Source: Streptomyces sp. NBC_00690 (GTDB taxonomy: Bacteria > Actinomycetota > Actinomycetes > Streptomycetales > Streptomycetaceae). From it: 64,000 bases of DNA. This document shows, piece by piece, positions 11,445 through 37,632 of the stretch (positions are counted from its first letter, which is position 1; each line of letters starts with the position of its first letter). Position numbers and translations under genes: made by a program. The stretch covers positions 7,777,501 through 7,841,500 of the forward strand of contig NZ_CP109009.1 of the NCBI RefSeq assembly GCF_036226685.1. The letters run 5' to 3'. The notes under the pieces are model-generated. The model did no database searches. It was not told where the DNA came from and worked only from the letters and a program-made list of their open reading frames with translations.

Positions 11445-11496
11445 TTCAAGAGTCCGCAGAATCCCCGGTTTCGCGAACCGAGCATCGTCGTCTATA
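11445..11496 (-). promoter_or_regulatory. Conserved operator/promoter motif, copy A
   Basis: On the minus strand this stretch reads CGGTT-CGCGA-AACCG, an inverted repeat, followed by GGGGATTCTGCGGACTCTTGAA with minor variation. A nearly identical stretch lies before the gene at 37701 (copy B), and related ones lie at 34214 (C) and 33160 (D). A TATA-containing segment sits about 15 bases before the repeat in copies A, B and C. It ends about 40 bases upstream of the 11404 start, as an element-wide regulatory site would. Confidence 0.65.
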
Positions 11497-11507
11497 AAGC
11501 CCCGCGC

Positions 11508-11612
11508 CTACCGGTACGGGTTCTCCGTACCGCGGTCCGTATCGGTGGCGGCGTCGAGGAGTTCGGGCAGGTCAGTGCCGTTGGCGTCGCGGTGAGGTCG
11601 GCCTGGGGCGCG
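11508..11612 (-). pseudogene. 3' exon of the gene split by the group II intron
   Basis: After the intron's terminal CTAC the frame continues RAPGRPHRDANGTDLPELL and on to the stop at 11508. Joined to the 5' exon at 13764 it stays in frame (WWIDQ then RAPGR). The host gene is small and unrecognised. It could be functional if the intron splices, but the 5' side looks truncated. Confidence 0.6.
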
Positions 11613-11653
11613 GTAGTGGCCTTTCGGCCAGCCCGTTTCCCCAGGCCGCCTCC

Positions 11654-11690
11654 CGAACCGGACGTGCCTGTTGCCGAGCATCCGGCTCTC
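11654..11690 (-). ncRNA. Group II intron domain V
   Basis: A 37-base hairpin on the minus strand: GAGAGCCGGATGC pairs through GCACGTCCGGTTC with a bulge. This is the catalytic domain V pattern of bacterial group II introns. It lies just downstream of the maturase stop and is followed by a domain VI-like stem ending at the splice site. Confidence 0.75.
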
Positions 11691-11705
11691 CACTGTTTCG
11701 TGGCG

Positions 11706-13154
11706 CTAGGCGAGTTGGCGTGCCGCGTACTCGGCCCACGGGGTGGGGATTCTCTCGCCGCGGAACCGGTAGCGAGTGACTTCCCTGGATGCGGCCAGAT
11801 AGAGCCGCACGTTCTCCGTGGGGTCTGCCCACAGCCATCGGTCGACTTGATACCGACGCCGTAGTTGCTTCCTGTTGGCACGGCGGTGCTTCTTCCGTAG
11901 CCACCTTCCGACCAGCCACCACACATAGTGGCTGAGGTAGTGGAAGGTGTGCGACGAGACGCCGTGCTGGAAGTACGCAGTCCATCCCCGTAGCACCTGA
12001 TTGATCCGGCGCAGCAGGGTGCCGAGCGTGACGTTCGTGGTCTGTCGCGCGATGGTCTTCACCTTGTGCTTGACCGACGTCAACGCTTTGTCGGACGGCC
12101 AGGTGTAGACGTATCGCTTGCTGCTTCCCTTCTGCTGCTGCCGCTGGATGCGGAAGCCGAGGAAGGTGAAGCCCTCGTCGAGATGGACGACGCTCGTCTT
12201 CTCCTCCGACAGGCGCAGGCCCATCGGGGAGAGCACCTCTGAGACCTGGCCCCGGATCGCTTCAGCGTGCGCTTTCGTCCCGGCCACCATCACCACGAAG
12301 TCGTCGGCATACCGCACGAGGCGGTAGGTCGCTCCTCCGCGACGACGGAGCCGGGTCCGCGCGTTGCTGTCGTGTCCGGCGGCCTGCCATTGCTCGGCGA
12401 AGAACTCGTCGAGCACGGACAGGGCGATGTTGGCCAGCAGAGGCGAGAGAATGCCGCCCTGCGGGGTGCCGGTGTCGGTGCGCCTGACCATCTGGCCCTC
12501 GGAGAGGATGCCAGCCTTCAGGAACGCCTTCACCAGTCCCAGAACGCGTTTGTCTCCGACGCGGTCTCGCACCCGGCCCATGAGGGCCGTGTGGTCGATC
12601 TCGTCGAAGCACGCCGTGATGTCCGCCTCCAGGACCCAGTGATAGATGCTGGTTCCGTAGTGGTGGATCTCGGCGATGGCGTCCTGAGCGCGCCGGTTCG
12701 GGCGGAAGCCGTAGGAGCACGGTTTGAAATCCGCCTCGAAGATCGGCTCCAAGACCAGCTTGAGAGCCGCCTGCACCACCCGGTCCCGCACCGTCGGAAT
12801 CCCCAGCCGGCGCAGCTTGCCACCGGCCTTCGGGATCATCCGCTCTCGTACGGGCATCGGGCGGAACGCCCCGGTCTTCAGGTCGACCCGCAACATGGCC
12901 AGGAACTCCTCCAGGCCATAACGGACTTCGACACCGGTGGCGGTCAAGCCGTCCACCCCTGCCGAACGGGCTCCCCTGTTGCTCCGCACCCGGCTCCACG
13001 CGATCAGCAGGAACGCCGGGTCACAGACGAGGTTGAACAGATCATCAAACGTTTGTGACGGATCATCCGTCGCCCAACGATGCAGCTTGGCCTGGATCCC
13101 CAGTACCCGGCGTTCGGCCTTCATCAAGGCCCACTCCAGCTCGTCGGTATTCAC
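11706..13154 (-). CDS. ltrA: Group II intron reverse transcriptase/maturase
   Basis: A 482-residue intron-encoded protein that reverse-transcribes and helps splice the intron. The RT core is clear: GGKLRRLGIPTVRDRVVQAA (RT2/3), FEADFKPCSYGFRPNRRAQD, TGTPQGGILSPLLANI (RT4) and the catalytic RYADDFVV (RT5). A maturase (X) domain follows (LRRINQVLRGWTAYFQHGVS). No HNH zinc-type endonuclease motif is visible at the C-terminus, so mobility would be endonuclease-independent. The ATG at 13154 gives a normal family length. Confidence 0.95.
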   Translation of the reverse strand: MNTDELEWALMKAERRVLGIQAKLHRWATDDPSQTFDDLFNLVCDPAFLLIAWSRVRSNRGARSAGVDGLTATGVEVRYGLEEFLAMLRVDLKTGAFRPMPVRERMIPKAGGKLRRLGIPTVRDRVVQAALKLVLEPIFEADFKPCSYGFRPNRRAQDAIAEIHHYGTSIYHWVLEADITACFDEIDHTALMGRVRDRVGDKRVLGLVKAFLKAGILSEGQMVRRTDTGTPQGGILSPLLANIALSVLDEFFAEQWQAAGHDSNARTRLRRRGGATYRLVRYADDFVVMVAGTKAHAEAIRGQVSEVLSPMGLRLSEEKTSVVHLDEGFTFLGFRIQRQQQKGSSKRYVYTWPSDKALTSVKHKVKTIARQTTNVTLGTLLRRINQVLRGWTAYFQHGVSSHTFHYLSHYVWWLVGRWLRKKHRRANRKQLRRRYQVDRWLWADPTENVRLYLAASREVTRYRFRGERIPTPWAEYAARQLA

Positions 13155-16847: not shown

Positions 16848-18647
16848 TCAGCGTGTCCTGCGGATGGCGTCTGTGGCCGCCGTGGCGATGGCGGCGGGAG
16901 CGCTGGAGGGCTGGGGCAGGTGCAGCAAGGTGGTCCCCGGCAGGTGGAGGGACTGCGCGGTGAGGGTGAGCTGGAGTACGGCGCAGCCGGCGGTGGTGAG
17001 TTGCTTGACGCGGGTGGCGGCTTGAGTGGTTTCGTCGCTGTTGTACCGGGCGTCGGTGACGATCACGAGGAGGCGGCCGGCGCCGGGGCGGCTGAGTTCG
17101 AGGCCGTGGTCGAGTGCGTCGATGGCGTCGCCGAGGTTGTGGTGGCCGCCGTTGGCGTCGAACGTCGTCACGCGTTCTGGTGCTCGGTGGGTGGGTCGGG
17201 TCAGTGCGGTGAGGTGCTGGTCGTAGGCGATGGTGGCGGTAAGGGAGTCGGGGTCGGTCAGGGCTGCTGCGCGTGCCACGATCCAGGCGGCGGACGCGAC
17301 GGGTGCGCAGGCGGCACGCATGGAGCCGGAGACGTCGACGGCGATGCCCACACGCAGCGGTGGGGTGGGGGAGTTGCGGCGGCGGGTGTGGGTGAACGGT
17401 TCCGCGGTGGGGACGGACCCGGCCGCGCGCTGAGCGTCGCGGGCGAGGGCCGCGCGCATGTTGAGGCGGCCGGGCGGGGTGGGGCTGGTGGTCCGCTCCT
17501 CGGTCCGCTCGCGGTAGGCGGCGGCGCGCAGGGCGCGGCTCAGGCGTGCGGCGGCACGCTGTTCGGCGGCGGTGGGCCTGCGGGTGCCGGTGACCGGGTT
17601 GCCGTGGGGCGCTGGTGTGCCGTCGGGGGTGACGGTGGTGCCACGGGCGTTGAAGACCGACTTGGCGGTGGCGGCGGCTTTGCGTCGTTGGCCGGCCCGC
17701 TGGGCGCGGTCCTGTGCCTGCGCCTTGGACTGCGCGGCCATGGCGTTGGTCGCTGCGGCCTGTGCCGCGAGGTCGGCGGCGTCGGTGGCGGCCGCGCTGT
17801 CCATGACGGCCACCACGGCGCCGGACAGCAGATCGGTGAGGTTCTCCGGCACGGGCAGGGCGGGGGTCGCGGTGTCCAGAGCGTCGCACCATTTTTGAGC
17901 GTGCGCGAGCATGGTCGTGGCGTCGTGGTCGGCGCACTGGTGGGCTGCGGTCCAGATGCGGGTGAGGGTGGCCAGCAGGTCTGCGCCCAGCACCTTTTCG
18001 CACAGATCGGCGACGGCCCGGGTCTCGCCGGGGTCCAGGATGCCGACGTCACGGCGGCCGAGGATCAGGGCCGCCACGGCGGCGGCGTGCTCGATGCCCT
18101 TAAGGGTGGGGTGGGCGATGTCGGGCATGACCAGGGTCCGGGCACTGGTGCGCAGGTACGTGCGGTCCGTGGGCCGCGTGATCAGGTGTGCGCCTTCGAC
18201 GCGGCTCTCCTCCAGCAGGAGCGCGGCCTCGACGACACGGGGGTCCGCTCCGGCAGGCTGTGTCCAGAGGGAGTGGGCCGCGTGCGCGGCCTCGTGGACG
18301 AACACTCCCCAGGCGGCGGGATACCGCTCCTCGTCGCCAACGATCCGCGGATGGATCTCGTGGGGCTTAAGCGGGGCGAACAGGCGGGCGTCGAACTCGA
18401 CCTCGCCCAGCGTGGGGAAATAGGCGGCCGGTGCGCCGCTGCGCGTGCCGGGGCGGCAGGTGACGAGGAGGTCCTGGCGGCCGGAGAGGGCGACCAGCCG
18501 GTCGCCGAGTTCGGCTCCCACGCGCAGCCACGCGTCCGGGGAGGAACGGGGTTGCGCGGGCGGGGCGCCGTCGTCGTCCCATCGCGCGAGGTCGGCGTCG
18601 TTGTCCCGGGTGGTGGCGGGGGACTGGACGTGGTGGTGGGCGCTCAT
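16848..18647 (-). CDS. VWA domain protein with an N-terminal zincin-like region
   Basis: A 599-residue protein. Residues 110-180 contain HEAAH (118-122) and a downstream ESRVEGAHL, which look like a zincin metallopeptidase centre. The C-terminal 170 residues are a von Willebrand A domain with an intact MIDAS motif (VDVSGSM near 439-444) and a later VTDARYNSD. The linker is alanine/arginine-rich. Its ATG overlaps the stop of a MoxR-type ATPase gene as ATGA. MoxR-VWA pairs usually act as chaperone-like machines that activate or remodel targets. The substrate here is unknown. Confidence 0.8.
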   Translation of the reverse strand: MSAHHHVQSPATTRDNDADLARWDDDGAPPAQPRSSPDAWLRVGAELGDRLVALSGRQDLLVTCRPGTRSGAPAAYFPTLGEVEFDARLFAPLKPHEIHPRIVGDEERYPAAWGVFVHEAAHAAHSLWTQPAGADPRVVEAALLLEESRVEGAHLITRPTDRTYLRTSARTLVMPDIAHPTLKGIEHAAAVAALILGRRDVGILDPGETRAVADLCEKVLGADLLATLTRIWTAAHQCADHDATTMLAHAQKWCDALDTATPALPVPENLTDLLSGAVVAVMDSAAATDAADLAAQAAATNAMAAQSKAQAQDRAQRAGQRRKAAATAKSVFNARGTTVTPDGTPAPHGNPVTGTRRPTAAEQRAAARLSRALRAAAYRERTEERTTSPTPPGRLNMRAALARDAQRAAGSVPTAEPFTHTRRRNSPTPPLRVGIAVDVSGSMRAACAPVASAAWIVARAAALTDPDSLTATIAYDQHLTALTRPTHRAPERVTTFDANGGHHNLGDAIDALDHGLELSRPGAGRLLVIVTDARYNSDETTQAATRVKQLTTAGCAVLQLTLTAQSLHLPGTTLLHLPQPSSAPAAIATAATDAIRRTR

Positions 18648-19846
18648 CGCGAGCGGCCCCGGTGTGCGGAGCCGATGCTCGGGGGCTGCCGGGCGGCTGA
18701 GGCGGGGAGCTGTTTGCCGAGGGTGAGGGGAGCGACCTGTTTGACGCCGGCAGCCTTGATGACGGCGGCGGCGACGGCGTCGCGATCCTCCACAGGAGCG
18801 ATGCCGACGAGGTTCGCGAGCGCGGCTTTGGTGCCGAGGACGGCCTCGGTCTTCTGGTAGCTGAGCAGTTCCCGCAGTTGGGGGGCCCAGCCCAGTTCGC
18901 CGAGTTCGACTTGGCGAGCGAGGTGTCGGGCGACCCGGACCACCCGGGCATCGATCCTCAGCGCCAGGGCGAGGTCGTAGTCCGTGCCGATCTGGATCTG
19001 CACGCTGAACCGGGACGACAGCGCCTCCGTCAACACCGCCCCGTGGACGCCGGGATTGTGGCCCGCCACCACGTAGAAGCCCGGCTCGGCCTTGATGGTC
19101 TCGCCCTTGTGGGCCTTGACCTGGATCTGCCTGCGCCCGTCCATCGCGGGATACAGCGCCGCCAGGACCTTCGGTGAGATCAAGGTGGCATCGTCGATCA
19201 GCAGGGCGCGGCCCTCGGTCATCGCGGTGACCAGGGGACCGTACTGGAAGACGTAGGCTCCCGCGTCGGCCTGTGTGTACTCGCCGACCAAGTCGCCGAC
19301 CGTGGTGTCGCCGTCACCGGCGACGGTGAGCAGGTCCGGGAACGCCGCCTCGACCAGACTCGTCTTGCCGGTGCCCGGAGGGCCGTAGAGCAGCACCGGC
19401 ACGTCGGCGTCGCGCAAGCGATTCAGCGCCTCGACGTCGGGCAGATCGGCCAGCTCCCGGGGGTGGTAGACCTGGCCCCCCGCGCGGCGGATCGGGCCGG
19501 TCTGCCTGGGCGTGGCTGCTGCGGGGATGGTCGTGCGGGCCGTGGCCGCCTGGGCGCGGGGAGAGTGAGTGCCCGGTGGGCTGATCACAGCGGACTGCGC
19601 GGCAGCGGCGGTCTTCGCGTTCGCGCGGAACTCCGGTTGCCCGGATCCGCTCTGGTCGGCCTCGCCGCGCCGCACCAGGGTAAGGGCGGCGTTGCGGACG
19701 GCGCCGTGGGAGTGGCCCAGCTGCCGGGCCATGTCCCCGATCGTGAGCCTGTCCGCCGGCCGGTCGGCCAGCAGCCGAGCCACCTTGGCCCGTAGCTCGC
19801 CGCCCTTGGTACGCGCTGGACTGGCAGGCGTTCCGGGTGTGGTCAC
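18644..19846 (-). CDS. MoxR-type AAA+ ATPase with an N-terminal helix-turn-helix
   Basis: A 400-residue protein starting at GTG 19846. Residues 15-65 look like a winged helix (RLTIGDMARQLGHSHGAVRN). After a flexible linker the AAA+ domain has Walker A GPPGTGKT (155-162), Walker B ALLIDDA and an arginine-finger region (TEALSSRFSVQIQIG). It is most like the MoxR/CbbQ group, which works with VWA partners; the VWA gene follows at once with a 4-base overlap. The added DNA-binding-like domain is unusual and could tie the machine to DNA or to autoregulation (inferred). Confidence 0.82.
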   Translation of the reverse strand: MTTPGTPASPARTKGGELRAKVARLLADRPADRLTIGDMARQLGHSHGAVRNAALTLVRRGEADQSGSGQPEFRANAKTAAAAQSAVISPPGTHSPRAQAATARTTIPAAATPRQTGPIRRAGGQVYHPRELADLPDVEALNRLRDADVPVLLYGPPGTGKTSLVEAAFPDLLTVAGDGDTTVGDLVGEYTQADAGAYVFQYGPLVTAMTEGRALLIDDATLISPKVLAALYPAMDGRRQIQVKAHKGETIKAEPGFYVVAGHNPGVHGAVLTEALSSRFSVQIQIGTDYDLALALRIDARVVRVARHLARQVELGELGWAPQLRELLSYQKTEAVLGTKAALANLVGIAPVEDRDAVAAAVIKAAGVKQVAPLTLGKQLPASAARQPPSIGSAHRGRSR

Positions 19847-25474: not shown

Positions 25475-25575
25475 CTGAAACTCCTGGGAATGGCGGGAAG
25501 GGGGGATGTGGTCCGAGTCCGGCAGGCAGGACAGAGGTCCGTACGTCGGGATTCGTGAACCTGCGAGCCGTGGAT

Positions 25576-27090
25576 CTAGTGCATGCGGGCGTCGGTGTCG
25601 AAGAGTTGTGCTTCGTGCGGGTGCAGAAGATGTTGAACGATGAAGGATCGTCCGGCGACCCGCCATAGGCCACGTCCCCGGTTGAGGTGGGCGATGGCCT
25701 GCGTTTCGACGCTGGTGAGGCCGAGGAGGGTGGCGGCTGCCTGGAGTTGGTCGTTTTCCTGGCGGTAGATGATGCGGGTGGAGCAGTCGGCGAGGAGTCC
25801 TTCGGCCAGCGCTCGTCCGCGGGACCCGGCATCGCCGGCGGTCAGGAGGTCGGACGGTCGGTGGATGACCATGAGGTTGGCGATGCCGAGGCCGCGGGAG
25901 AGTTTCCATTGGGCTTGCATGCGTTGCAGGAGTCCGGGGTGGCGCATGAGGCGCCAGGCTTCGTCGTAGACGATCCAGCGCCGTCCGCCGTTCGGGTCGG
26001 TGAGCGCGCTTTCCATCCAGGCGGAGGCGCAGGTCATGGCGAGGACGAGGGCGGTGTCGTCGCCGGATCCGCCGAGGCGGGACAGGTCGATGCTCAGCAT
26101 CGGCGAGCTGGGGTCGAAGGCGACGGTGGAGGGGGCGTCGAACATGCCGGCGAGGTCTCCGTGGACCATGCGGCGCAGTGCGTGGGCGAGGTCGCGGGCG
26201 GCGTCGCCGAGCCGCCCCGACAGGGCGCCGCCCGCGATATCCAGCAGGCCCGGGTTGTTGAGGGTGGTGGCGATGTCGCCGAGGAGCGGGGCCCGGCCTG
26301 CGCTTTCGGCTTGGCTCACGATGGTGTCGAGGGCGACATCCAGGGCGGTGTGCTCCATCGGCGCGAGGTCGCGGCCCAGCACGGTCCTCGCCAGTGACCC
26401 GAGGAGCAGGAGCCGGCGCTTGCGGATCTCGGTCGCCCATTCCTCTTCCGACACGCTGTTCGGCCGGGGGGCCGCGTCGAGGGGGTTGAGTTTGCCGGGC
26501 AGTCCGGGCCCGAGGGCGATGGTGGTGCCGCCGAGGACTTGCGCGACGGGCGTCCACTCGCCCTTTGGGTCGCAGGGGACGTAGACGCGGTAGCCGAAAG
26601 CGATGGATCGCAGCGCGAAGGACTTGGCGAGCGCGGACTTGCCCTGCCCGATCACCCCCGCGAGCAGGACGTTGGGGTTGGTGAAGCCCTCGATCTTCCC
26701 GTAGAGGGTGAAGGGATCGAAGCTGAAAGCAGCCTCCGCGTGGACGTCGCGGCCGATGTAGATGCCATCCGCGCCGAGCCCGCCCTCCGCCAAGAACGGA
26801 TACGCACCGGACGCGGTGGCGGTGGTCATACGGTGCGCGGGGAGCCTGAGCTTCGAGCCTCGGGCGGACGCGGGGCCCGGTCGTCCGCCTGCCCCATACA
26901 ACGGCGGTGGCATTTCTTCCTCGGCCGGTGTCGAACCGTCCGGGTGGGCGGTGGCGGCGGCGCGGGCTTGGGCGGTGGCTTCGGCGAGCTGGCGGCGGGC
27001 CTGTCTGCGGCCGGCGCGGTCCGTGCCGTGCGGGGTGAACAGCGGTGAAGCGGAGGCGCGGCGGGCGCGGCAAGAGGGCCGGTGGGACAT
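25576..27090 (-). CDS. virB4: VirB4/TraC-like conjugation ATPase
   Basis: A 504-residue ATPase of a type IV secretion-like system, acting at the inner face of the membrane to power mating-pair formation. Walker A is GVIGQGKS (145-152). Walker B is WIVYDEAW (about 375-382), followed by a RIIYRQENDQLQ segment typical of VirB4-type proteins. The first 85 residues are charged and disordered. An internal ATG at residue 88 is a possible alternative start. The next genes upstream are the SCO6880-like, TrbL-like and VirB8-like components. Confidence 0.88.
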   Translation of the reverse strand: MSHRPSCRARRASASPLFTPHGTDRAGRRQARRQLAEATAQARAAATAHPDGSTPAEEEMPPPLYGAGGRPGPASARGSKLRLPAHRMTTATASGAYPFLAEGGLGADGIYIGRDVHAEAAFSFDPFTLYGKIEGFTNPNVLLAGVIGQGKSALAKSFALRSIAFGYRVYVPCDPKGEWTPVAQVLGGTTIALGPGLPGKLNPLDAAPRPNSVSEEEWATEIRKRRLLLLGSLARTVLGRDLAPMEHTALDVALDTIVSQAESAGRAPLLGDIATTLNNPGLLDIAGGALSGRLGDAARDLAHALRRMVHGDLAGMFDAPSTVAFDPSSPMLSIDLSRLGGSGDDTALVLAMTCASAWMESALTDPNGGRRWIVYDEAWRLMRHPGLLQRMQAQWKLSRGLGIANLMVIHRPSDLLTAGDAGSRGRALAEGLLADCSTRIIYRQENDQLQAAATLLGLTSVETQAIAHLNRGRGLWRVAGRSFIVQHLLHPHEAQLFDTDARMH

Positions 27091-27116
27091 CTGGGGCTCG
27101 TTTCGGCGGGGTCTGC

Positions 27117-27548
27117 TCACGACGCACGGGTGAGGTCGGTGGGGGTGGTCCTGCGGCGGATCCTGTGTCCGGCGGCGAGGTGGCGCTGGCAGATGGTCAA
27201 CACCGGCGGGCCTTCCGGCAACGCCTGCGGATCGCAGTCCGTACTGCTGGCTTCCGGGCTGGTGGGGAGGGTGTGGAAGGCGTCGTGGACCTCTGCGGTG
27301 GCCTGCCATATCCGGGTGTGCGCGGCGGCGAGATGCCGTCCAGCGGTCGGGTGCGGGGGCCTGGTCTGCTCGGCGCACTGGTCGAGGAGCTGGTGCAGCG
27401 CGGTGAGATGAGCGTGCAAGGCGTCCAGATGGGACCGGCCGGGAGCCTGGCGTGCGGTGGGGCTCCCTGTGGTGAGGGCGCGGGCGTGGTGGCGAAGACC
27501 GGCGGTCGCGGCCCGCAAATAGGGGGATGCGTCGGGAGGAGAGCTCAT
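27117..27548 (-). CDS. Hypothetical protein in the transfer operon
   Basis: A 143-residue histidine-rich helical protein starting at ATG 27548, overlapping the SCO6880-like gene's stop as ATGA. Two helices are rich in H, A and L (HLDALHAHLTALHQLLDQCA). No signal peptide. It lies between the SCO6880-like and VirB4 genes, so it is probably a small accessory of the transfer apparatus, but I do not recognise the family. Confidence 0.6.
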   Translation of the reverse strand: MSSPPDASPYLRAATAGLRHHARALTTGSPTARQAPGRSHLDALHAHLTALHQLLDQCAEQTRPPHPTAGRHLAAAHTRIWQATAEVHDAFHTLPTSPEASSTDCDPQALPEGPPVLTICQRHLAAGHRIRRRTTPTDLTRAS

Positions 27549-28999
27549 AGGGCGATCCGGGCGAGAGGGAGGGCTGCGGTGGTGAAGGCGTCCGGCTGTT
27601 GAAAGTCCAACCGGCGGAGGTCGACTTGAGCGGACCCGGCGGCGGTCTCGATGGTCGCGCACGCGGCGTCCAGCGCGGCGTCGGTCGGGGCGCTCACGGT
27701 GAGCAGGCCGGTGAGGTCGACATCTGCATGCCCGGCGATCAACTGGCGTTCACGGGTTTTGGCGTCGGCGTACTCGATGGTGTCGGCCTCGGAGTCGACC
27801 ATGCCCCGGCGTCGGCGCTCGTTGGCGTCGGCGATGATCGTCGCCTTCGTGCGCTGGACGTCGCGTAGCGCTGCTTCCAGTGTTTTGGGCACATAGATGA
27901 GGGAGAGGCTGCGGCGCACTCCGGCGGTGAACATCAGCCCGTGCAAGAACCCGGCCGAGGTTTCGGTGCGAGGCCAGTTCTCGACCCAGTAGGTGGCGTG
28001 CCGCGCACTGTCGGTGATCACCCGATCCGCTTCTTCGACCTGAACGACCGGGCCCGCGGCTTCGGGGTGTGCTTCGGCTCGGCCGGTCTCGGACCACTGC
28101 TGCAGCCGGGACAGGGATTGCGGGTCGTAGGCGGTGCGGATGACGGCGGCGATCTCCGGCGCGGTGAGCCACCCGGCCACGGTCAGCCCCGCACCCCGTG
28201 CGGCCTGCGTCACGGAGGAGGTGGTCTGCTCCATCACCGTGAACGCGCCCGGCAACCCTCCACCCGCTTGGGAGACCAGCCGTTTGGCGGCTTTGAGGTC
28301 GAGGGAGATCACGAGGTAGGACTCGTGGGGGGCGGCGGCCGGTCCGGCGGATTCGACCAAGTCGCCATAGATCTGTCCGGCGACCGGGGTGTCGGGATGC
28401 CCCTGCTGGACCCAGTGTCGGGTGAGGGTGTCGCCGGAGTCGGGGACGGTGCGTTCCAGGACCTGGATGGCGGCGATGTGCCCGGTACGGGAAACACTGG
28501 CCAAGGCTCGGCCCCAGCCGCTGACGTTGGCGTTCTGCGTGGCGGGGTCGAGGAGCGCGAACGCTCTGCTGGAGATGCGGGCGACAGCGGTCAGCGTCTG
28601 GCGGTGCGGGTCGTGCACCGCGGCGGCCTCCGATCCATGCGGGGTGACGACCCGGAGCGATGCGGCGGTGCCGGGCAGGTGAAGAATGCCGTCCTGCCGA
28701 GGCCGGGACACCGGACGCGCGAGCCATCTCGTCTGCCCGGAGCGCCGCCGGAACAGGTAGCGCAGGACGATCGGGGCCCAGTCGATCAGAGAGCGGCCGG
28801 CGCGACGGATGAAGGTTAGACCGGCGACCGCCGCCCACACCGGGGTCAACAGCACCGCGCCGACCAGGCCGGTGGACACGACGGTCACCATCAACAGGGC
28901 GAGCGCGGCCGAGACCAAAGACAACTGCGGTAGCGACAGACCGAGGAGGATGCCGCGGCGCGAGCGGTGCGGAAACTTCACCGTCACCGGCGCTTGCAT
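27545..28999 (-). CDS. SCO6880/PrgI-like conjugation membrane protein
   Basis: A 484-residue protein with two N-terminal membrane helices after a basic start (LSLPQLSLVSAALALLMVTV). A long soluble domain follows with DPATQNANVSGWGRALASVS and VPKTLEAALRDVQRTKATII. This is the SCO6880-type protein of Streptomyces type IV-like systems; its N-terminus is PrgI-like. It probably works with VirB4 at the inner membrane. The ATG at 28999 lacks a clear ribosome-binding site, and TTG 29026 is an alternative. Confidence 0.82.
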   Translation of the reverse strand: MQAPVTVKFPHRSRRGILLGLSLPQLSLVSAALALLMVTVVSTGLVGAVLLTPVWAAVAGLTFIRRAGRSLIDWAPIVLRYLFRRRSGQTRWLARPVSRPRQDGILHLPGTAASLRVVTPHGSEAAAVHDPHRQTLTAVARISSRAFALLDPATQNANVSGWGRALASVSRTGHIAAIQVLERTVPDSGDTLTRHWVQQGHPDTPVAGQIYGDLVESAGPAAAPHESYLVISLDLKAAKRLVSQAGGGLPGAFTVMEQTTSSVTQAARGAGLTVAGWLTAPEIAAVIRTAYDPQSLSRLQQWSETGRAEAHPEAAGPVVQVEEADRVITDSARHATYWVENWPRTETSAGFLHGLMFTAGVRRSLSLIYVPKTLEAALRDVQRTKATIIADANERRRRGMVDSEADTIEYADAKTRERQLIAGHADVDLTGLLTVSAPTDAALDAACATIETAAGSAQVDLRRLDFQQPDAFTTAALPLARIAL

Positions 29000-29112
29000 T
29001 GTGGAAAGTTCAGACAAGACGGACAACCATTCCAGGACATGCGAGGGAGGAGCCGGGTGGAGCACGACAGGCTGTTCTGCCGTGCCCCACCCGACCGTTT
29101 CGGAGGAGCCGG

Positions 29113-30588
29113 TCAGGTGCCGGTGGGCGAAGGCGGCGGGCTCGCCGGCCCACTGGACGTACCCGGACCGGTACGAGGCGCGGTGTCCGGTGCGGGCGGT
29201 GCGCCCTGCGGGGGCGGCGGCGCGGTACTGGTCGGAGCACTCCGCGGCACGTACCCGGCGGGCGGCACCCCGGGAACGACAGACGCAGGCTGGCTGCTGC
29301 TGTCCTGGTCGGCGACCACTGGCGCGGGCGCGTCCTGCTGCCCGCCCGAGCCAGAACCAGTGCCAGAGTTGGGGCTGGAACTGTTACCTGGTCCCGGGCT
29401 CACGGGCGCTTCCTGGACGGCCTGCTCCACACCCTTGGCCATCGCGTCAGCGGCGGGCGATACACCGCCCAGCTGGCCGCTGCTCTGACCAGTCTGCTCA
29501 CCACCACTGCCACCACCTGCGGTGCTGGAGGAGGCGATATCGCCGGGGAAGGAGCCGTCGGCGAAGTCCGGGCCCTGCGGCGCGGCACTCCCAGCGCCCT
29601 CTGCGGCACCGGCTGCTCCGCCGGTACCGGCGGTCGCCGCCATCGAGGCGGCCTTCCGTCCCGCGCGTTCGGCGTGCTGCCGCGCCAGTTGGGCGCCGGC
29701 GCCGCCGGCGCGGTGGATGTCCTCACCGTTGGTGCCCTCGGCGGCCCAGTGCACGAACTTGAACGTGGCGTACGGGCAGAGCAGGACGAGCATCATGATG
29801 ACGATGCCTGCCATGACGTCGGAGAGCGCGGCGATCCCACCGTCGGCTTCGGTCTTGCCCATGGCGGACATGCCGAGGAGGAACACCACGGTCATCAGCA
29901 GTTTGGAGACGATGAGGGTGGCGGTGGCTTCGATCCAGCCGCGGCGCCACCGGCGGGTGGCCTCCCAGCCTCCGCCCGCCGCGGCGAACACCGCGAGGGT
30001 GACGAGGACGAGGATGCCGATCTTGCGGACCATCATCACGCACCAGTACAGGAACGCGCCGATCGCGGCGGCGAGAGCGGCGAACACCATCACCAGCCAA
30101 CCCAACCCGGTCAGGGCACCGATCTGATGCACCTTGACCATGCGCCGCACAGCGTCCTCGACACTGGTGTTCGCCGCTCGGAACAACCCGTCCGACAACG
30201 CGTCGGTGACCTCAATCGCAACAGTGGTCAGGGCGATGGCGGCGAACGCGAACAGCACACCACTGGCGGTGCCGGTGAACGCCTGGGCCAGCGCTTGCCC
30301 GTCCCGTTTCATCGCGGCCCGAATCAACTGGGCACAGAACGTGGCGACCAGGACGATCAACCCGATGGGCAGCAGCGTCTCGTAGTTGTCGCGAAACCAC
30401 GCGGCGTTCAAGTCGATGTTCGTGGTGGCGTTGACGGCGTCCGCCGCCAAATCAGTCGCCGCAGCGGCCAGTTCACCGGCGCTCTTGGCCATCCAGTTCC
30501 CGATCGCCGCGCCCGGGTCGGACACGAACTTCGCCGCGTCGATGACGCCGCACACCTTGTCCGCCAGGGGGAGTTCACAGAAATTCAT
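29113..30588 (-). CDS. TrbL/VirB6-like conjugation membrane protein
   Basis: A 491-residue polytopic protein starting at ATG 30588 after GAGGAGG. At least six hydrophobic segments lie between residues 70 and 285 (for example LLPIGLIVLVATFCAQLIRA and MTVVFLLGMSAM). A long Gly/Ser/Pro-rich cytoplasmic tail follows. This is the TrbL/VirB6 layout, forming the inner-membrane channel. The low-complexity tail of about 190 residues is longer than in classical TrbL. It sits between the SCO6880-like and VirB8-like genes. Confidence 0.82.
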   Translation of the reverse strand: MNFCELPLADKVCGVIDAAKFVSDPGAAIGNWMAKSAGELAAAATDLAADAVNATTNIDLNAAWFRDNYETLLPIGLIVLVATFCAQLIRAAMKRDGQALAQAFTGTASGVLFAFAAIALTTVAIEVTDALSDGLFRAANTSVEDAVRRMVKVHQIGALTGLGWLVMVFAALAAAIGAFLYWCVMMVRKIGILVLVTLAVFAAAGGGWEATRRWRRGWIEATATLIVSKLLMTVVFLLGMSAMGKTEADGGIAALSDVMAGIVIMMLVLLCPYATFKFVHWAAEGTNGEDIHRAGGAGAQLARQHAERAGRKAASMAATAGTGGAAGAAEGAGSAAPQGPDFADGSFPGDIASSSTAGGGSGGEQTGQSSGQLGGVSPAADAMAKGVEQAVQEAPVSPGPGNSSSPNSGTGSGSGGQQDAPAPVVADQDSSSQPASVVPGVPPAGYVPRSAPTSTAPPPPQGAPPAPDTAPRTGPGTSSGPASPPPSPTGT

Positions 30589-31737: not shown

Positions 31738-32859
31738 TCAGAGGACGCGGCGCACGCTGAGGATCTTGGTGTTTTTCACGGGCTCGATGCGGACGACGGT
31801 CCCGGTGCGGGGGGCGTTGATCAGGAGTCCTGAGCCCATGTAGAGGCTGACGTGCTCAGGGCGGGTGGCGGTGCCGCGGGAGAAGATCAGGTCACCCGGT
31901 TTCATGGCCTTGGGGGAGACGGCTGTGCCTTCGTTGACCTGGGTGTATGTGGTGCGGGTGAGGGTGACCCCGGCTGCCCGGTATGCCTGCTGGGTCAGGC
32001 TGGAGCAGTCGCAGCGGCCCATCGGGTCGGGTCCGCGGGGGTCGGTGCAGGTCCCGCCCCACTGGTAGGGGGTGCCGAGCTGCCCCATCGCCCAGGTGAT
32101 CGCCGTGCGCGCCCTCGGATCAGCGTCCTTGGGGATCGCGTATCCGACGGGTACGGCTCCGTCGGGGATCGGGCCGAAGCCGGAGCCGTCCTCGCCGGGC
32201 GCACACCCGGAACTACCGCCCCCGGCAGCCTCATCCGGCGTCTCCCCGGTGCCGTCGCCCTGGTCGGGCAGGATGGCGGTGATGGCCTTCTGCAGTGCAC
32301 GGGACAGTGGTTCCCACTGCGCGTACGCGTCCGGGTACCCGGATTTCTGGACGGCTTGGGCGGCTTGGGTGATGGTCATCTGCTGCCACCCGGCTGTGCC
32401 TAGCAGCCCTTCGTAGAACTTGGTGGAGGAGTAGACGGGGTCGCGGATCTGGTCGGGGGTGCCCCAGCCCATGCTCGGCCGCTGCTGGAACAACCCCAGG
32501 CTGTCTCGGTCGCCGTAGTCGAGGTTCCGCAGCCGGGATTCCTGCAAGGCGGTGGCCAGGGCCACGACCTGCCCGCGCTCTGGCACGTTCAGGGAGATGC
32601 CGGTGGCGACGATCGTCTTGGCGTGCGGGATCTGCTCGGCCGGGAGGTCGAGGCCCTCGACCGTGATGTCCTGGTCGGCGCCTGCGCCGCCGAGGATGGC
32701 CGCGACCTGCGCCGCGACCGCCTCGGCGTCGACATCCGTGGTGGTGCAGGAGGTGTTGTCGAGGGCGGCGCTGCTGCCGGACGCGACGACGACGGCGGTC
32801 CCGGCGAGGAGGAGGGGGGAGAGGCAGAAGACGCCGATGGCGGCGGCTGCGGCCTTCAA
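31738..32859 (-). CDS. NlpC/P60 peptidoglycan hydrolase with a transglycosylase-like domain
   Basis: A 373-residue exported protein that opens cell wall for the transfer channel, the VirB1-like role. It has a signal peptide (LKAAAAAIGVFCLSPLLLAG). A lysozyme-like region follows (VVALATALQESRLRNLDYGD, with LGLFQQRP). The C-terminal C40 domain has the catalytic cysteine in GRCDCSSLTQQAYRAAG and a histidine in RPEHVSLYMG. The TTG at 32859 is chosen because GGGAGG precedes it by nine bases and it overlaps the stop of a short upstream frame as TTGA. It is first in the transfer operon. Confidence 0.85.
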   Translation of the reverse strand: MKAAAAAIGVFCLSPLLLAGTAVVVASGSSAALDNTSCTTTDVDAEAVAAQVAAILGGAGADQDITVEGLDLPAEQIPHAKTIVATGISLNVPERGQVVALATALQESRLRNLDYGDRDSLGLFQQRPSMGWGTPDQIRDPVYSSTKFYEGLLGTAGWQQMTITQAAQAVQKSGYPDAYAQWEPLSRALQKAITAILPDQGDGTGETPDEAAGGGSSGCAPGEDGSGFGPIPDGAVPVGYAIPKDADPRARTAITWAMGQLGTPYQWGGTCTDPRGPDPMGRCDCSSLTQQAYRAAGVTLTRTTYTQVNEGTAVSPKAMKPGDLIFSRGTATRPEHVSLYMGSGLLINAPRTGTVVRIEPVKNTKILSVRRVL

Positions 32860-32927
32860 CCGGTGCCGCCTCCCGGAGCGTGCGGTTCGGCCGGTAGGCG
32901 GTGTTCGGACAGATTGGAGCGTGCCAC
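32856..32927 (-). CDS. Possible 23-residue leader peptide before the NlpC gene
   Basis: A GTG at 32927 follows GGGAG at good spacing. It opens a 23-codon frame (VARSNLSEHRLPAEPHAPGG, then GTG) whose TGA overlaps the TTG of the hydrolase gene as TTGA. It may be a coupling leader for the whole transfer operon. Alternatively it is the shifted true N-terminus of the hydrolase if one base is missing. Confidence 0.4.
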   Translation of the reverse strand: MARSNLSEHRLPAEPHAPGGGTG

Positions 32928-33159
32928 AGAGGTACTCCCTTGAAGTGAGGCCCGGTCGCGTGGTGTCCGGTGTGAGAGGCGCGAGCCGTGGCGGGGTGGG
33001 ACGGGGTGCGTCGTTGGGGTGGCTCTCCGGCGTACGAGTTGCCGCTCGTGCCTGGAGGGCGCCGGTCAGGTGGAACAGGGCATGGGAATAGCCAAGAGGG
33101 TGGGGAGGGGGATGGGCCTGCGGCGGTGTTCGCCGGGCACTTCCAAAACAGTAAGCCCA

Positions 33160-33243
33160 GATCCCCGGTTGGCGAAATAGTTCAGGAATCTGGGTCGCCG
33201 CTCGCGTATCGCATTCGGCGGCGATAGCGGTCAACCGGGGATC
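33160..33243. promoter_or_regulatory. Conserved operator/promoter motif, copy D (two inverted half-sites)
   Basis: GATCCCCGGTT at 33160-33170 is followed by GGCGAAAT as in copies B and C. Its exact reverse complement, AACCGGGGATC, lies at 33233-33243. A further imperfect stem (CCCAGATCC with GGAATCTGGG) surrounds the first half-site. It lies between the leftward transfer operon and the rightward methyltransferase gene, so it could control both. Confidence 0.58.
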
Positions 33244-33388
33244 GTGCCCTAGAGTTTTGGTATCTCCCCCTCGCTACCCGCCTCACACGCGGCCGTCCGC
33301 CCTGCCCGCATTCACCGAGCAAGGGCAGGCGGCGAGCAGGGTGCACCTCTCCCACCCTCATTCCCGACCCGAATCCTGGGGTATCCCT

Positions 33389-34144
33389 TTGCCTTTTTCC
33401 CTTCACCAGGGCGACGCCCTGACTGTCCTCGCCGGTCTGCCGGACGACTGTGTCGACTCCGTGATCACCGACCCGCCATACAACTCGGGCGGTCGGACCG
33501 CGAAGGAACGCACCTCCCGTAGCGCCCGCCAGAAGTACACCTCCGCCGATGCCGGCCATGATCTGCCGGACTTTACGGGCGAGAACATGGATCAGAGGTC
33601 TTACGGGTTCTGGTTGACGCAGATCATGACCGAGGCCCACCGCCTCACCAAGGTGGGCGGCACGGCACTTTTGTTCACGGACTGGCGGCAGTTGCCGGTC
33701 ACCACGGATGCGATCCAGGCTGCGGGCTGGCTGTGGCGCGGTGTCCTCGTGTGGCATAAGCCGCAGGCTAGGCCCCAGAAGGGCCGCTTCACCCAGAACT
33801 GCGAGTTCATCGTCTGGGCCAGTAATGGGCCGATCGACGCCGCCCGGAACCCGGTCTACCTACCGGGGCAGTACTCGGCTTCGCAGCCGTCGGGGAAGGG
33901 CAGGCAGCACATCACGCAGAAGCCGGTCTCGGTGATGCGTGACCTGGTGCAGATCGCTCCGCCGGGCGGTACGGTCCTGGACTTCTGCGCCGGTTCCGGT
34001 TCGACGGGGGTGGCGGCCTTGCTGGAGGGCCGCGACTTCATCGGCGTCGAGAAGACGAAGCATTACGCCGCCGTCGCTTCGGACCGGCTTACCGAGACCC
34101 TGCAGCAGACCCGTACGCAGGACGACTTCGGCCTCACCGCATAG
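33389..34144 (+). CDS. Beta-class DNA methyltransferase
   Basis: A site-specific DNA methyltransferase that modifies the exocyclic amino group of adenine or cytosine. The catalytic TDPPY motif (about residue 27) comes before the SAM-binding motif LDFCAGSGSTG (about residue 195), the permuted order of the beta class. No restriction endonuclease gene is adjacent, so it may be an orphan that protects the element. The start is uncertain: TTG 33389 fits the domain edge, while GTG 33341 or 33257 would be longer. It is the first rightward gene after copy D. Confidence 0.85.
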   Translation: MPFSLHQGDALTVLAGLPDDCVDSVITDPPYNSGGRTAKERTSRSARQKYTSADAGHDLPDFTGENMDQRSYGFWLTQIMTEAHRLTKVGGTALLFTDWRQLPVTTDAIQAAGWLWRGVLVWHKPQARPQKGRFTQNCEFIVWASNGPIDAARNPVYLPGQYSASQPSGKGRQHITQKPVSVMRDLVQIAPPGGTVLDFCAGSGSTGVAALLEGRDFIGVEKTKHYAAVASDRLTETLQQTRTQDDFGLTA

Positions 34145-34200: not shown

Positions 34201-34213
34201 TGCGCGGGGCAGA

Positions 34214-34265
34214 TATAGCAGCCGATTCCCGGTTCGTGAAATCGGGAATCGTTCGGATCCTTGCC
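34214..34265 (+). promoter_or_regulatory. Conserved operator/promoter motif, copy C
   Basis: This is the best inverted repeat of the set: GATTCCCGGTT (34224-34234) and AATCGGGAATC (34240-34250) match at 10 of 11 pairs around CGTGA. TATAGCAGC precedes it, as in copy B. It lies about 45 bases before the DUF4913 start and directly after a terminator, which fits an operator within the promoter. Confidence 0.65.
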
Positions 34266-34309: not shown

Positions 34310-34993
34310 GTGCCCGAATCCACACAACCCCAAGGTGGCGGGGAAATGCCACCGGTGCGGCTGCCTGATTCCGGTCTGGAATCCATCGAGGCGAGCGTTC
34401 GTAAATTGCTGGATCAGACGGCGGAGCAGGCACGGCAGCTCGACAGCCTCGCCGCCGACCCTGGCCCCGCTCCCCGACCAGCAGCCCCGTTCCCCGGCTT
34501 CGGCATGCCAGGCATGACCGGCTTCGCGGGGATGCCCGGCATGCCCGCGCCGGCTCCCGCACCACCCGAGCCGAAGCCGATCCTGGAGCTGGACGGCGAG
34601 GAGTACGAGAACGAACTCGACGCGCTCTCGGACTGGGTGGACGACTTCCTCATGCCCGCCTACGGCGCGGAGGTCACCACCGGTGCTCCGTGGTGCGAGC
34701 GGTGGCAGGAGCACCAGGACGTCGTCGCCTGGCTCCACGCCCTGTGGATGGCCTACCAGCAGCACAAGGACCCCGAAGCGGGGCTCGCCGGACTGTTCGT
34801 GTGGCACCGGGACTTCCTCACCCACGCCATGGCAGCCATCCGCGCCGCGGGCGGTCCCCTGTCCGCGTGCATGACCGACCCCGGCAGGCCCTCCCACCGC
34901 CTCTTGGCCGGACCGAACCCCTCCGCCCGCACCCAGGCTCCGGCCGCCGGAACGGCGGAATCCGGCGCACGGGCAGGCGGGGCTGGTTCATGA
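34310..34993 (+). CDS. DUF4913 protein
   Basis: A 227-residue protein starting at GTG 34310 after AAGGAG. Residues 90-190 match the DUF4913 pattern seen on actinobacterial conjugative plasmids (EYENELDALSDWVDDFLMPA, W-x-ERWQEHQDVVAWLHALW, LFVWHRDFLTHAMAAI). Before it lies a helical segment and a Met/Gly/Pro-rich linker. Cytoplasmic; exact role unknown, but strongly tied to conjugative elements. First gene of a coupled rightward operon. Confidence 0.8.
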   Translation: MPESTQPQGGGEMPPVRLPDSGLESIEASVRKLLDQTAEQARQLDSLAADPGPAPRPAAPFPGFGMPGMTGFAGMPGMPAPAPAPPEPKPILELDGEEYENELDALSDWVDDFLMPAYGAEVTTGAPWCERWQEHQDVVAWLHALWMAYQQHKDPEAGLAGLFVWHRDFLTHAMAAIRAAGGPLSACMTDPGRPSHRLLAGPNPSARTQAPAAGTAESGARAGGAGS

Positions 34994-35514: not shown

Positions 35515-36002
35515 CCTGCTTCACGATCCTCGACCAGCTGCTGAACAAGACCGAGGTGCGGCCCGAGGAGATCCGCCACCAAGCGATCCTCGACACCTCC
35601 CGCGCCTCTCAGCAGGCCAACGCGCGCCTCCTCGAAGCACTCGCCGAGCACCTCGATCGCGCGGACCGCGAGCTCGCGGTCCTGTTCGCCTCACATCACT
35701 GCTGCTGCCCGGAGAACGAAGAAGACCCCCTTCAAGAGGGCTTCGACGACTCCGGGTCCCACCACGGTGAGGTCGCGTACGGGGATCCGGGCACGCGCGA
35801 CGCCCCCGACCTGCTGGCCGGGCTGCGGCTCCTGCCGGGGACCGTGGAAGGACGAGGGCGATACGCCGACCTCACCCCAGCACGCCTCGCCCAACTGCTC
35901 TCTACCTACGGAATAGCCACCCGTGACGTCACGCTGCCCGATGGCCGGCGCCGCGCGTCCTACCGCCGTGCCGCGCTCACCGAAGTGCTGGGGTGCTGCT
36001 GA
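35511..36002 (+). CDS. Hypothetical protein with a C-terminal helix-turn-helix-like segment
   Basis: A 163-residue protein starting at TTG 35511, overlapping the preceding stop as TTGA. The N-terminal 60 residues form helices with a CCC run (FASHHCCCPENEED) that could bind metal. The C-terminal 45 residues (TPARLAQLLSTYGIATRDVT) resemble the small DNA-binding or adaptor segment at the end of DUF3631-type proteins. Function unknown. The stop overlaps the next ATG. Confidence 0.6.
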   Translation: MTCFTILDQLLNKTEVRPEEIRHQAILDTSRASQQANARLLEALAEHLDRADRELAVLFASHHCCCPENEEDPLQEGFDDSGSHHGEVAYGDPGTRDAPDLLAGLRLLPGTVEGRGRYADLTPARLAQLLSTYGIATRDVTLPDGRRRASYRRAALTEVLGCC

Positions 36003-36727
36003 TGCGGTCCGGTTCGGAAGGATCTCCAGCCACGCCCGCAAGCCCTGCGTCCAAGCCGGTGCCGAGGGCGCTGACCAGCTTGGACCACCGCGTCGAGGCC
36101 GCCGTGGGCAACAGCATCGACGCCCTGTGGGACCAGCGCGATTCCGGTCTCCTCGACGAGTCTCACGCCCGTCTGGTGGACGCTTACCGAACGCTCGCGG
36201 CGGCCGAATTCAAGGTGACCTTCTACCGGGTCCTGGTCCACCGCCTGGTCTCGGGCGAGTACCCGGTCGACGACGCACTGCTCGACCGGATCAACCGCAC
36301 GGTCGACCAGCTGGGGGAAGCGGTCGACGTCCGCGACGAGCAGCACACGACCGTACTGGACTCGCTGGAACCCTTCGAGGAAGCGGCCCGCACGGCTGCT
36401 CCGGCCAGCACCATGGATCTCCCTGCCCGGGAAGTCGGCGCGCTCCTGGCCATCGCGCAGGGCGCCAAACTCCACGAACACCTCCTCACCCAGCGGCTCT
36501 CCGTGGTCACCGCATCCGGGACCCGCGTCGGATACGAACAGCTCCAGCGACTGGAACAGGCCGGACTCGTCGAACGGGACACCACCCACCCGGTCCACGC
36601 CGGACAGCCGGTCACCCTCACTGACACCGGCCGCAGCGCCCTCGTCGGAACACGCCGTCCGCCTACGGCCAGTGGACCCGTTCCGCAGGCGGGAGCCTGG
36701 CCCCCAGCCACCCGCTCCCGCCACTGA
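36002..36727 (+). CDS. Winged-helix protein with a helical N-terminal domain
   Basis: A 241-residue protein starting at ATG 36002, overlapping the previous stop as TGATG. Residues 30-125 are helical and contain a VDVRDEQHTTVLDSL motif that also appears in the tandem genes at 38-39.5 kb. Residues 140-210 look like a winged helix (TASGTRVGYEQLQRLEQAGL, VTLTDTGRSAL). It may be a regulator of this rightward block. Confidence 0.65.
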   Translation: MRSGSEGSPATPASPASKPVPRALTSLDHRVEAAVGNSIDALWDQRDSGLLDESHARLVDAYRTLAAAEFKVTFYRVLVHRLVSGEYPVDDALLDRINRTVDQLGEAVDVRDEQHTTVLDSLEPFEEAARTAAPASTMDLPAREVGALLAIAQGAKLHEHLLTQRLSVVTASGTRVGYEQLQRLEQAGLVERDTTHPVHAGQPVTLTDTGRSALVGTRRPPTASGPVPQAGAWPPATRSRH

Positions 36728-36774
36728 CCCCGCACTGGGAACCCTGGCCCGTACCGCCCATTCCGAAAGCCAGC

Positions 36775-37500
36775 ATGCCCTCACCCACGCCGGATTTCCG
36801 ACTCGACGGCTACAAGGCCGTCAACCCGCATGTCGACAGAGCCTTCTGGCTGCACATCGCCAGCAACGAGTACGACCTGACGCTGCTCGCGAAACACCAC
36901 CGCGACGACGGACGCCACAGCCACTACGTCCTCCACGACAGAACCGCCACCTGGGGCATCCCAGGAGAGCCCCAGCTCATCGCCCTCCACCTGCAACGCG
37001 ACCCCGCAGCACGGACGTTTCGCTTCGAGCACGCCACGCTGCCGCTGCCGGCCATGGCCCAGTCCTGGCTCATCGCCCGCGGCTGCCCAACCGACAGCAT
37101 CCGCCGCCTCCCCGACGGCATGGGCACCACACCGGCCGATGACACCACCCGCGCCCTGGAAGAACGCCTGATGGGTGACGGCGACCACTTCGCCCTCCTG
37201 AGCAGCTACACCGACGACACCTCGGCCTCACCGCAGATCACGGTGCTGCTGCGCGCCGTGGACGAGGCGGGACCACTGCCGTTTCGGGTGCTGCTGGAGG
37301 AAATCGACCTCACCGACTTCACACACACCCTGCGCGAAGGAGGCTTCGCCACCTTCGGTGAGGCCACCAGCTGGTGGGAGAACCACTGGCAGGGCCAGGC
37401 CGTCCCCCTGCCGCCCGCCCCACCATCCGCGGTCCGAACCGCTGCGCCGGGGCTGCCGCCCCAACCGCCCACCGCGCCCCTGCCCGGCCGCGCACGCTGA
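36775..37500 (+). CDS. Hypothetical protein
   Basis: A 241-residue protein starting at ATG 36775. The N-terminal 130 residues are strand-rich with many aromatic residues (FWLHIASNEYDLTLLAKHHR). The rest mixes strands and helices and ends in a proline tail. The GGFATFGEATSWWENHW segment recalls DUF317-like proteins in style, but the key blocks are missing. Not assigned. Last gene before copy B. Confidence 0.58.
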   Translation: MPSPTPDFRLDGYKAVNPHVDRAFWLHIASNEYDLTLLAKHHRDDGRHSHYVLHDRTATWGIPGEPQLIALHLQRDPAARTFRFEHATLPLPAMAQSWLIARGCPTDSIRRLPDGMGTTPADDTTRALEERLMGDGDHFALLSSYTDDTSASPQITVLLRAVDEAGPLPFRVLLEEIDLTDFTHTLREGGFATFGEATSWWENHWQGQAVPLPPAPPSAVRTAAPGLPPQPPTAPLPGRAR

Positions 37501-37580
37501 ACCCTCATCTCAGACCCCCGACCCGCCTAAAGGGGTCTGCAGGGCGTCAATTCAGTTGTCTGTGGGTGTAGTCGGCGGAA

Positions 37581-37632
37581 TATAGCAGCGGTCTCCCGGT
37601 TCGGGAAATCGGGGATTCTGCGGACTCTTGAA
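37581..37632 (+). promoter_or_regulatory. Conserved operator/promoter motif, copy B
   Basis: TATAGCAGC is followed by CCCGGTT, CGGGA and AATCGGGG, then ATTCTGCGGACTCTTGAA. It is nearly identical to copy A read on the opposite strand. It ends about 70 bases before the secreted SH3-like gene. The long identity with A beyond the inverted repeat suggests a shared promoter as well as an operator. Confidence 0.65.

Follow-up and report, generated by a model that had tools for sequence, protein, structure and literature searches.

The window, by which we mean the whole stretch of 64,000 nucleotides that was analyzed (G000:C1:7777501-7841500, from the 9.17-Mb, two-contig genome of Streptomyces sp. 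NBC_00690), contains an integrative and conjugative element (ICE) of the type IV secretion system (T4SS) type, an assignment based on its SCO6880- and SCO6881-family proteins, a VirB4-like ATPase, DUF6112, NlpC/P60 and N6_N4 methylase proteins, and many DUF317 proteins (Table 1). Sequence inspection of this element gave three copies of a 50-bp module that align without gaps, here termed sites A, C, and D. The module family has the consensus TATAGC-N4-GATCCCCGGTT-N5-AACCGGGGATC-N4-GGANNNTTG, that is, a 27-bp dyad with 11-bp arms and a 5-bp center, flanked by TATAGC 4 bp to the left and GGANNNTTG 4 bp to the right, and it stands about 30-80 bp upstream of orthologous genes. Here we describe the module, its occurrence in relatives, and the protein that may read it.

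The initial annotation had described one inverted repeat shared by four operons. Its copies beginning at 11445 (minus strand), 34214, and 37581 hold as a single ungapped module, but the region at 33160-33243 (site B) has a different architecture: its left arm GATCCCCGGTT is followed by GGCGAAATAGTT and not by the AA(T/C)CGGG that had been attributed to it, and the near-identical 3′ extension GATTCTGCGGACTCTTGAA is common to the 11445 and 37581 copies (inverted pair I1: 52 nt, 83%) rather than to that at 33160. Against a matrix derived from 79 sites in other genomes, sites A, C, and D reach 59.8, 51.9, and 50.5, and everything else in the 64 kb stays below 5; with the full matrix, in which the sites of the same genome are included, 40 versions of the window resampled by a first-order Markov model gave no score above −2.1. 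Across the genome, the TATA box plus palindrome (up to three mismatches) matches four times, at sites A, C, and D and once at 4.73 Mb, and the reversed control gives no match. The palindrome core alone (18 bases, up to three mismatches) is unspecific, with 150 and 149 matches on the two strands versus 52 and 53 for its control. Beyond the window, a weaker site was located near 7,760,617 on the minus strand (L145:3117, score 50), and the gene adjoining it neighbors such a site in relatives too.

The module recurs across Streptomyces. TATA box plus palindrome (up to three mismatches) was found in 22 of 150 genomes of the genus, and the palindrome with CCCC arms alone (up to two mismatches, a threshold that admits a few sites with CGCC arms) in 95 of 392, with no match to the reversed control in either case. 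The 13 matching genomes in a class-wide sample of 296 are all Streptomyces (1 of 114 genera), and so are all three matches among 72,556 plasmid records; of 24 genome segments that bear a title and match the module pattern exactly, 21 are titled Streptomyces. No phage record matched the module, and no plasmid matched the site D region of the window; a scan of viral contigs returned 11 stretches with the palindrome only.

The anatomy of the module was derived from 86 non-redundant sites; loci L061-L084, which had been picked by the 3′ motif, were excluded from it, and L045 and L123 were excluded from alignment A1. A weak G-rich stretch is followed by AATATAGC (T in 100% at position 2, A in 98% at position 3), four variable bases, the left arm GATCCCCGGTT, a center of the form (A)(C/G)C(G/C)A, and then AACCGGGGAT(C/T). 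The four bases after the right arm are most commonly CTCC or GTCC, and beyond them stands GGA-N-N-N-TTG, with A43 and T47 at 98%. The core of the palindrome is the best conserved part. Nothing is kept 17-18 bp upstream of TATAGC in the 86 sites, so that no −35 is conserved there, and TATAGC as a rightward −10 was rejected on this ground. The right part may instead be read as a rightward −10 (GANNNT) and the left part, reversed, as a leftward −10 (TATATT). The right half was also considered as an extracytoplasmic function (ECF)-type promoter, CGAAAC-N16-CATTGA, which resembles a BldN consensus; a search gave this reading no support. Two variants of the site recur. One (L145:3117 on the minus strand, L044, L058, L119, L166, L110, and L140) is directed toward a convergent gene, at its 3′ end, and is not followed by any obvious gene that it could serve; it often has extended, fully complementary outer arms (GGCG/CGCC), and is possibly the start of a small RNA or antisense transcript. 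The other is symmetric (L148:10460 on the plus strand, L216, L112:1107, and L050:1104), with a TATAGC- or CATAGC-like box on the left and GCTACA on the right, the same outward box at both ends.

The spelling of the palindrome is nearly uniform within each ICE, and between ICEs the arms switch symmetrically, CCCC/GGGG versus CGCC/GGCG; the centers are spelled ACCGA, AGCGA, AGCCA, TCCGA, or CGNGA. Seven class I ICEs (CCCC arms) have, by position and tblastn, the 139-aa gene behind site A and the DUF4913 gene behind site C, and behind site D six of them have the SH3-like gene; in G187, where that gene is missing, the next gene of the HxlR operon takes its place. Nine ICEs lacking the CCCC palindrome have the module at both the site A and the site D places, eight of them with a second spelling, GATCGCCGGTTAGCCAAACCGGCGATC or near it (class II), and G015 deviating. 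The proposal of a single regulon, as opposed to a motif at random positions, is supported by relatives that carry sites upstream of the same operons, within the limit that the copy before DUF4913, site C behind the methylase gene, occurs in all 19 of the 19 CCCC-arm relatives but in 0 of the 30 with CGCC arms. Because site C occurs only in class I, membership of the regulon has changed with the operator class. The largest family among the neighbors of the sites is integrase-like, with 34 of its 35 members on the right-hand side; PF00589 is matched by one protein of the corresponding cluster, and in some relatives the site is upstream of xis-like genes. Over 103 within-element pairs from 17 ICEs, the center is identical in a fraction of 0.73 (shuffled mean 0.21; maximum of 5000 shuffles, 0.40) and the arm pair (14/32) in 0.94 (shuffled mean 0.53, maximum 0.75). 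Genome G057 houses a class I ICE with five sites and a class II ICE with two, each uniform. Such coherence inside an element, together with differences from one element to the next and even between two ICEs that share a genome, makes it most likely that the element encodes the reader.

Scans of the backbone proteins gave a clear transcription-factor family for the HxlR gene and for no other. When operator distance was compared with the distances of 37 backbone proteins in 17 ICEs, HxlR ranked first (Spearman 0.73; partial correlation 0.65 given T4SS distance, with four T4SS proteins as the control; 0 of 500 permutations), partial values being available for 31 of the 37. A second set comprised 40 further ICEs picked by their HxlR gene, the site being taken within 12 kb at a matrix score of at least 30 (39 of 40 ICEs); HxlR loci of 3-9 kb, which mostly stop before site D, were excluded from the counts. 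HxlR again ranked first, among 14 proteins, at Spearman 0.85 (partial 0.83; 630 pairs from 36 elements). Values of 0.57-0.76 were obtained for most of the remaining genes at 33.4-39.5 kb, and 0.38 for the SH3-like gene beside site D. The first unit of the protein matches PF01638 at residues 29-114 (2.2e-19; 69.5 bits versus a cut-off of 20.8), and the second has a weak HTH_20 match only (18.1 bits; cut-off 27). An AlphaFold2 model (mean pLDDT 80.4) has two winged-helix units, the second at about 123-219, and a low-confidence tail; the best structure matches are HxlR-family or MarR-labelled PDB chains with borderline E values (1.2e-3 to 1e-2) over about 90 columns. We infer a putative role for the tandem HxlR as the reader of the sites. 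The ParB-like protein (about 24665-25567; weak NCBIfam match), which had also been named for binding tests, is a weaker candidate, with homologs in 2 of 16 relatives.

Site B, between the leftward transfer (tra) genes and the methylase gene, has half-sites at 33160-33171 (GATCCCCGGTTG) and 33232-33243 (CAACCGGGGATC) that face inward 60 bp apart. Beside each is an outward −10-like hexamer, TACTGT (33153-33148, minus strand) and TAGAGT (33250-33255, plus strand), and the flanks read CCAAAA and TTTGG. The tra/methylase gap is mirror-like in all 16 relatives that have the methylase gene, with TACAGT on the right and TACTGT, TACAGT, or TAGTGT, reversed, on the left. The window-type pair GATCCCCGGTTG and CAACCGGGGATC is present in five of seven class I ICEs, G093 and G190 deviating; in all eight class II ICEs the left half-site is changed (e.g., to GATCGGCGGTTGACC), and seven have TTGGTC-N17-TACAGT to the right. 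The mirror-like gap and the half-sites across relatives identify site B as a divergent promoter pair with half-operators, at which the same protein may act as at sites A, C, and D.

The module is also found away from such ICEs. Forty single-site loci of 20 kb each contain a member of the integrase family in 29 cases and of the relaxase cluster in 18 (either in 33, both in 14, neither in 7), and of the MobC/NikA family in 13; representatives of the three families match PF00589, PF03432, and PF21983. None of the 719 predicted proteins of these loci matches either HxlR unit (E 0.1), and no transcription-factor family is common to them, the largest, XRE-like, occurring in five. By their gene content, these loci look like integrative and mobilizable elements (IMEs) that share the operator of the ICE.

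It is probable, in our judgment, that the module is the operator-plus-promoter of an element-wide regulon in a large family of Streptomyces ICEs and that it is read by the predicted tandem HxlR protein of the element. Each ICE would encode its own reader in the operon behind site D, and this position of the gene would make HxlR autoregulated. The two winged helices, or a pair of HxlR molecules, would hold the dyad and influence RNA polymerase at the promoter beside it. The regulon would comprise the genes behind site A, the DUF4913 operon (class I only), the HxlR operon, and, by way of half-sites, the tra/methylase pair at site B, and elsewhere on such elements xis-like or int genes would stand under the same reader. 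The sign of its action is a weaker point: we lean toward an activator, although a repressor is nearly as likely. Two reasons favor activation: the rightward promoter is poor (no good −35, no T at −12), and if the operator served a repressor, integrase genes would be left on in elements that lack this protein. Again less firmly, reader-less IMEs with a relaxase may respond to the reader of an ICE. A broader view, which we hold as doubtful, is that the palindrome acts as a barcode of Streptomyces conjugation, with one tandem-HxlR master activator per ICE matched to an operator spelling of its own, at least five spellings side by side in the genus, and reader-less IMEs that bear the spelling of their helper and follow its activation for excision and mobilization.

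Several observations weigh against a regulon read by HxlR. The left box also offers a leftward −10, and the absence of site C from 30 of 30 class II ICEs means that the regulon is not uniform. Raw correlations with operator distance are found for the T4SS proteins too (Spearman 0.30-0.56; partial −0.13 to 0.28), and genes linked to HxlR reach 0.70 in the 17-ICE set and 0.76 in the second, in which one of the 40 HxlR-picked ICEs has no site. Residues of HxlR that track the operator spelling are not clearly placed in the recognition helices (class, 4 of the top 30, p 0.42; center, 7 of 30, p 0.027), and the class-tracking ones are enriched in the linker at 112-135 (7 of 30, p 0.0005). A tandem HxlR is present at E 1e-40 in 39 of the 95 genomes with the class I pattern and missing from 56; 38 further genomes have the gene and no class I-pattern site, which class II ICEs explain at least partly. 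Spelling shows no steady match, in an unsystematic count, between an ICE and distant sites of the same genome: it differs in G000, G057, G109, G288, G093 (center only), and G389 and agrees in G012, as it does in G352 and G115 for sites located on other contigs. The guess in the initial annotation that this HxlR protein reads the motif gains, beyond what linkage would provide, from the best divergence correlation in two sets of ICEs, above that of the site-adjoining gene, and loses from the residue test and the 56 genomes without the gene.

The same operator and reader could also make up a central repressor system (Kor/CI-like), lying across the −35 so that the ICE is silent and immune until derepression turns on all operons, and we regard this as a real if not a favored possibility. 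With the right −10 at GANNNT, the dyad center falls about 20 bp upstream, over the −35, and the reader gene itself is in a regulated operon. Co-resident ICEs, of different class in G057 and G162, agree with it, but G295 has two ICEs with same-class D sites, and these cases are too few to judge. Reader-less IMEs with a site would be constitutively on under such a repressor, and the rightward promoter elements look weak.

That a host chromosomal protein reads the common core CGGTT-N5-AACCG, the classes being neutral drift kept uniform per element by descent, is unlikely. The many site-bearing genomes without the HxlR gene, the lack of a transcription-factor family common to the single-site loci, and the conservation of the core would fit a host reader. 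Against it, both arms switch together, uniformly per element and differently between two ICEs of one host, and about three quarters of genomes have no such site, while the sites that exist mostly adjoin genes of mobile elements (33 of the 40 single-site loci).

An RNA hairpin at the 5′ end of transcripts that begin at TATAGC, serving as a leader or in stability or attenuation, is in our view an improbable role for the palindrome. Its outer arms do covary: in a 15-pair stem over the 84 sites of the stem-covariation test, 65 cells changed on both sides versus 31.9 ± 4.1 in shuffles, which keep the shared ancestry of the sites in, and sliding the partner lowers all measures. Site C also folds better than its shuffles (z −2.41), as does the long repeat at site B on either strand (z −3.3). 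The covariation is real, yet in pair counts over the 86 sites G.T is depleted (49 versus 66.3 ± 3.3 expected) with A.C at 60 versus 67.4 ± 3.3 and Watson-Crick pairs in excess (1036 versus 971.6 ± 7.4), a pattern more in keeping with a selected DNA palindrome than with an RNA stem. Sites A and D have no folding advantage over their shuffles (z 0.41 and 0.46), the covariation term of RNAalifold is near zero (−0.04, 6 pairs), and Rfam has no family at the sites. Least credible is a Frpo-like single-stranded DNA promoter, which the transferred strand would form by folding so that genes are expressed early in the recipient. The site can form a hairpin, has −10-like boxes at its flanks, and occurs on many elements with a relaxase and near a methylase gene. 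Yet within one element the sites are oriented along their genes on either strand (minus for A, plus for C and D; relatives alike), whereas one strand is transferred.

The coordinates of the sites and of the genes around them are collected in Table 1. Genes were called with a home-made GC-position caller, and some starts are wrong; the protein clusters are single-linkage and loose.

Table 1. Sites and principal genes of the ICE in the window
Feature	Position	Strand	Remarks
Site A	11447..11496	-	TATAGA-CGAC-GATGCTCGGTTCGCGAAACCGGGGATT-CTGC-GGACTCTTG; 42 bp upstream of the GTG of 10985-11404
Site B	33143..33260	.	Mirror-image divergent promoter region, not a module copy
Site C	34214..34263	+	TATAGC-AGCC-GATTCCCGGTTCGTGAAATCGGGAATC-GTTC-GGATCCTTG; 46 bp upstream of the GTG of the DUF4913 gene
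Site D	37581..37630	+	TATAGC-AGCG-GTCTCCCGGTTCGGGAAATCGGGGATT-CTGC-GGACTCTTG; 70 bp upstream of the ATG of the SH3-like gene
First gene behind site A, 139 aa	10985..11404	-	Its orthologs in relatives also follow this site
Second gene behind site A	10119..10988	-	In a single-linkage cluster with relaxases
VirB4-like transfer ATPase	25576..27378	-	NF045971 2.7e-20, 72.2 bits, below the cut-off of 325
SCO6880-family transfer protein	27545..29065	-	3e-126
SCO6881-family transfer protein	29113..30588	-	3.6e-173
NlpC/P60 protein, open reading frame	31738..33234	-	Longest possible start, hence the overlap with site B; begins the leftward transfer genes
N6_N4 DNA methylase gene, right of site B	33389..34144	+	Pfam 9.5e-30
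DUF4913 gene, 227 aa, first behind site C	34310..34993	+	GTG start
Small protein, 115 aa, first behind site D	37701..38048	+	Signal-peptide-like start; SH3 is the label of the initial annotation
Tandem HxlR-type winged-helix protein, proposed reader	39473..40369	+	Behind site D, same direction

Between site D and the HxlR gene lie 37701-38048, 38162-38593, 38590-39045, and 39157-39456. The open reading frame (ORF) at 10119-11276 has no Pfam or NCBIfam match of its own. A group II intron on the minus strand (11592-13154; Rfam RF00029 at 11592-11690, reverse transcriptase and maturase ORF at 11706-13154) lies directly behind a fragment (11508-11693) that represents the 3′ portion of the gene found upstream of site A, and this fragment is matched at 75-82% in 10 of 16 relatives by tblastn. 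The VWA-like and MoxR-like AAA proteins at 16848-19846 (minus strand) are 92-97% identical among the ICEs that have them, across operator classes; this identity is far above that of most of the backbone, which points to recent exchange of the module they form. An inverted repeat at 25125-25189 with 32-bp arms (TGTTCACTCAGTGAACGG..., 81% complementary) lies inside or beside the ParB-like gene. At about 54929-61953 (minus strand) is a second mobilization module with a MobB-like protein and a DnaC-like ATPase and without an operator copy; it is related to an IME-like element at 4.72-4.74 Mb of the same genome.

Literature searches on the regulation of Streptomyces ICEs and on HxlR together with Streptomyces and conjugative elements returned, among the papers listed, no description of this regulon, and none of six core-palindrome spellings occurred in the papers searched. 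In the comparison with the Kor systems, SCO3932 is a GntR-like protein with the reported motif AC[TC]T[AG]TT[GC][TG][GT]ACG, unlike the module described here (PMC8584621), and no window protein scanned matched the GntR family. The sps palindrome of SpdA2 from pIJ101 is described as short, conserved on Streptomyces plasmids, and bound by a plasmid protein (PMC4170104). It resembles the module by this description and differs in lying inside the spdA2 gene and in affecting stability (PMC4170104). The HxlR/DUF24 regulators HxlR, YodB, and HypR of Bacillus subtilis share fold and Pfam family with the candidate reader, which differs from them in being element-borne and in having two winged-helix units per chain plus a low-confidence tail.

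KorA/KorB of RK2 and KorSA of pSAM2, the latter from Streptomyces, are likewise global regulators with operators at several places of the element. In the AcaCD system of IncA/C plasmids and the island SGI1, an FlhDC-type activator acts at boxes upstream of several operons of both helper and island, so that one element-encoded master regulator also triggers a mobilizable island. A similar arrangement is seen here, with the same box on putative helper ICEs and on mobilizable elements and with mobilizable loci that have no regulator of their own in the 20 kb per locus. The AcaCD boxes are the nearest precedent (PMC4605294, PMC5058578, PMC4207636). The present system would differ in its proposed single tandem HxlR, its 27-bp dyad boxes in several spelling classes, its Streptomyces hosts, and a presumed activation. 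Because the operator and a candidate reader have been named and specificity classes exist in nature, the regulon is immediately open to testing. The site also provides a signature in DNA for locating related ICEs and IMEs and sorting them into groups. Should IMEs indeed follow the reader of an ICE, the pair would parallel, in actinobacteria, SGI1 and its helper.

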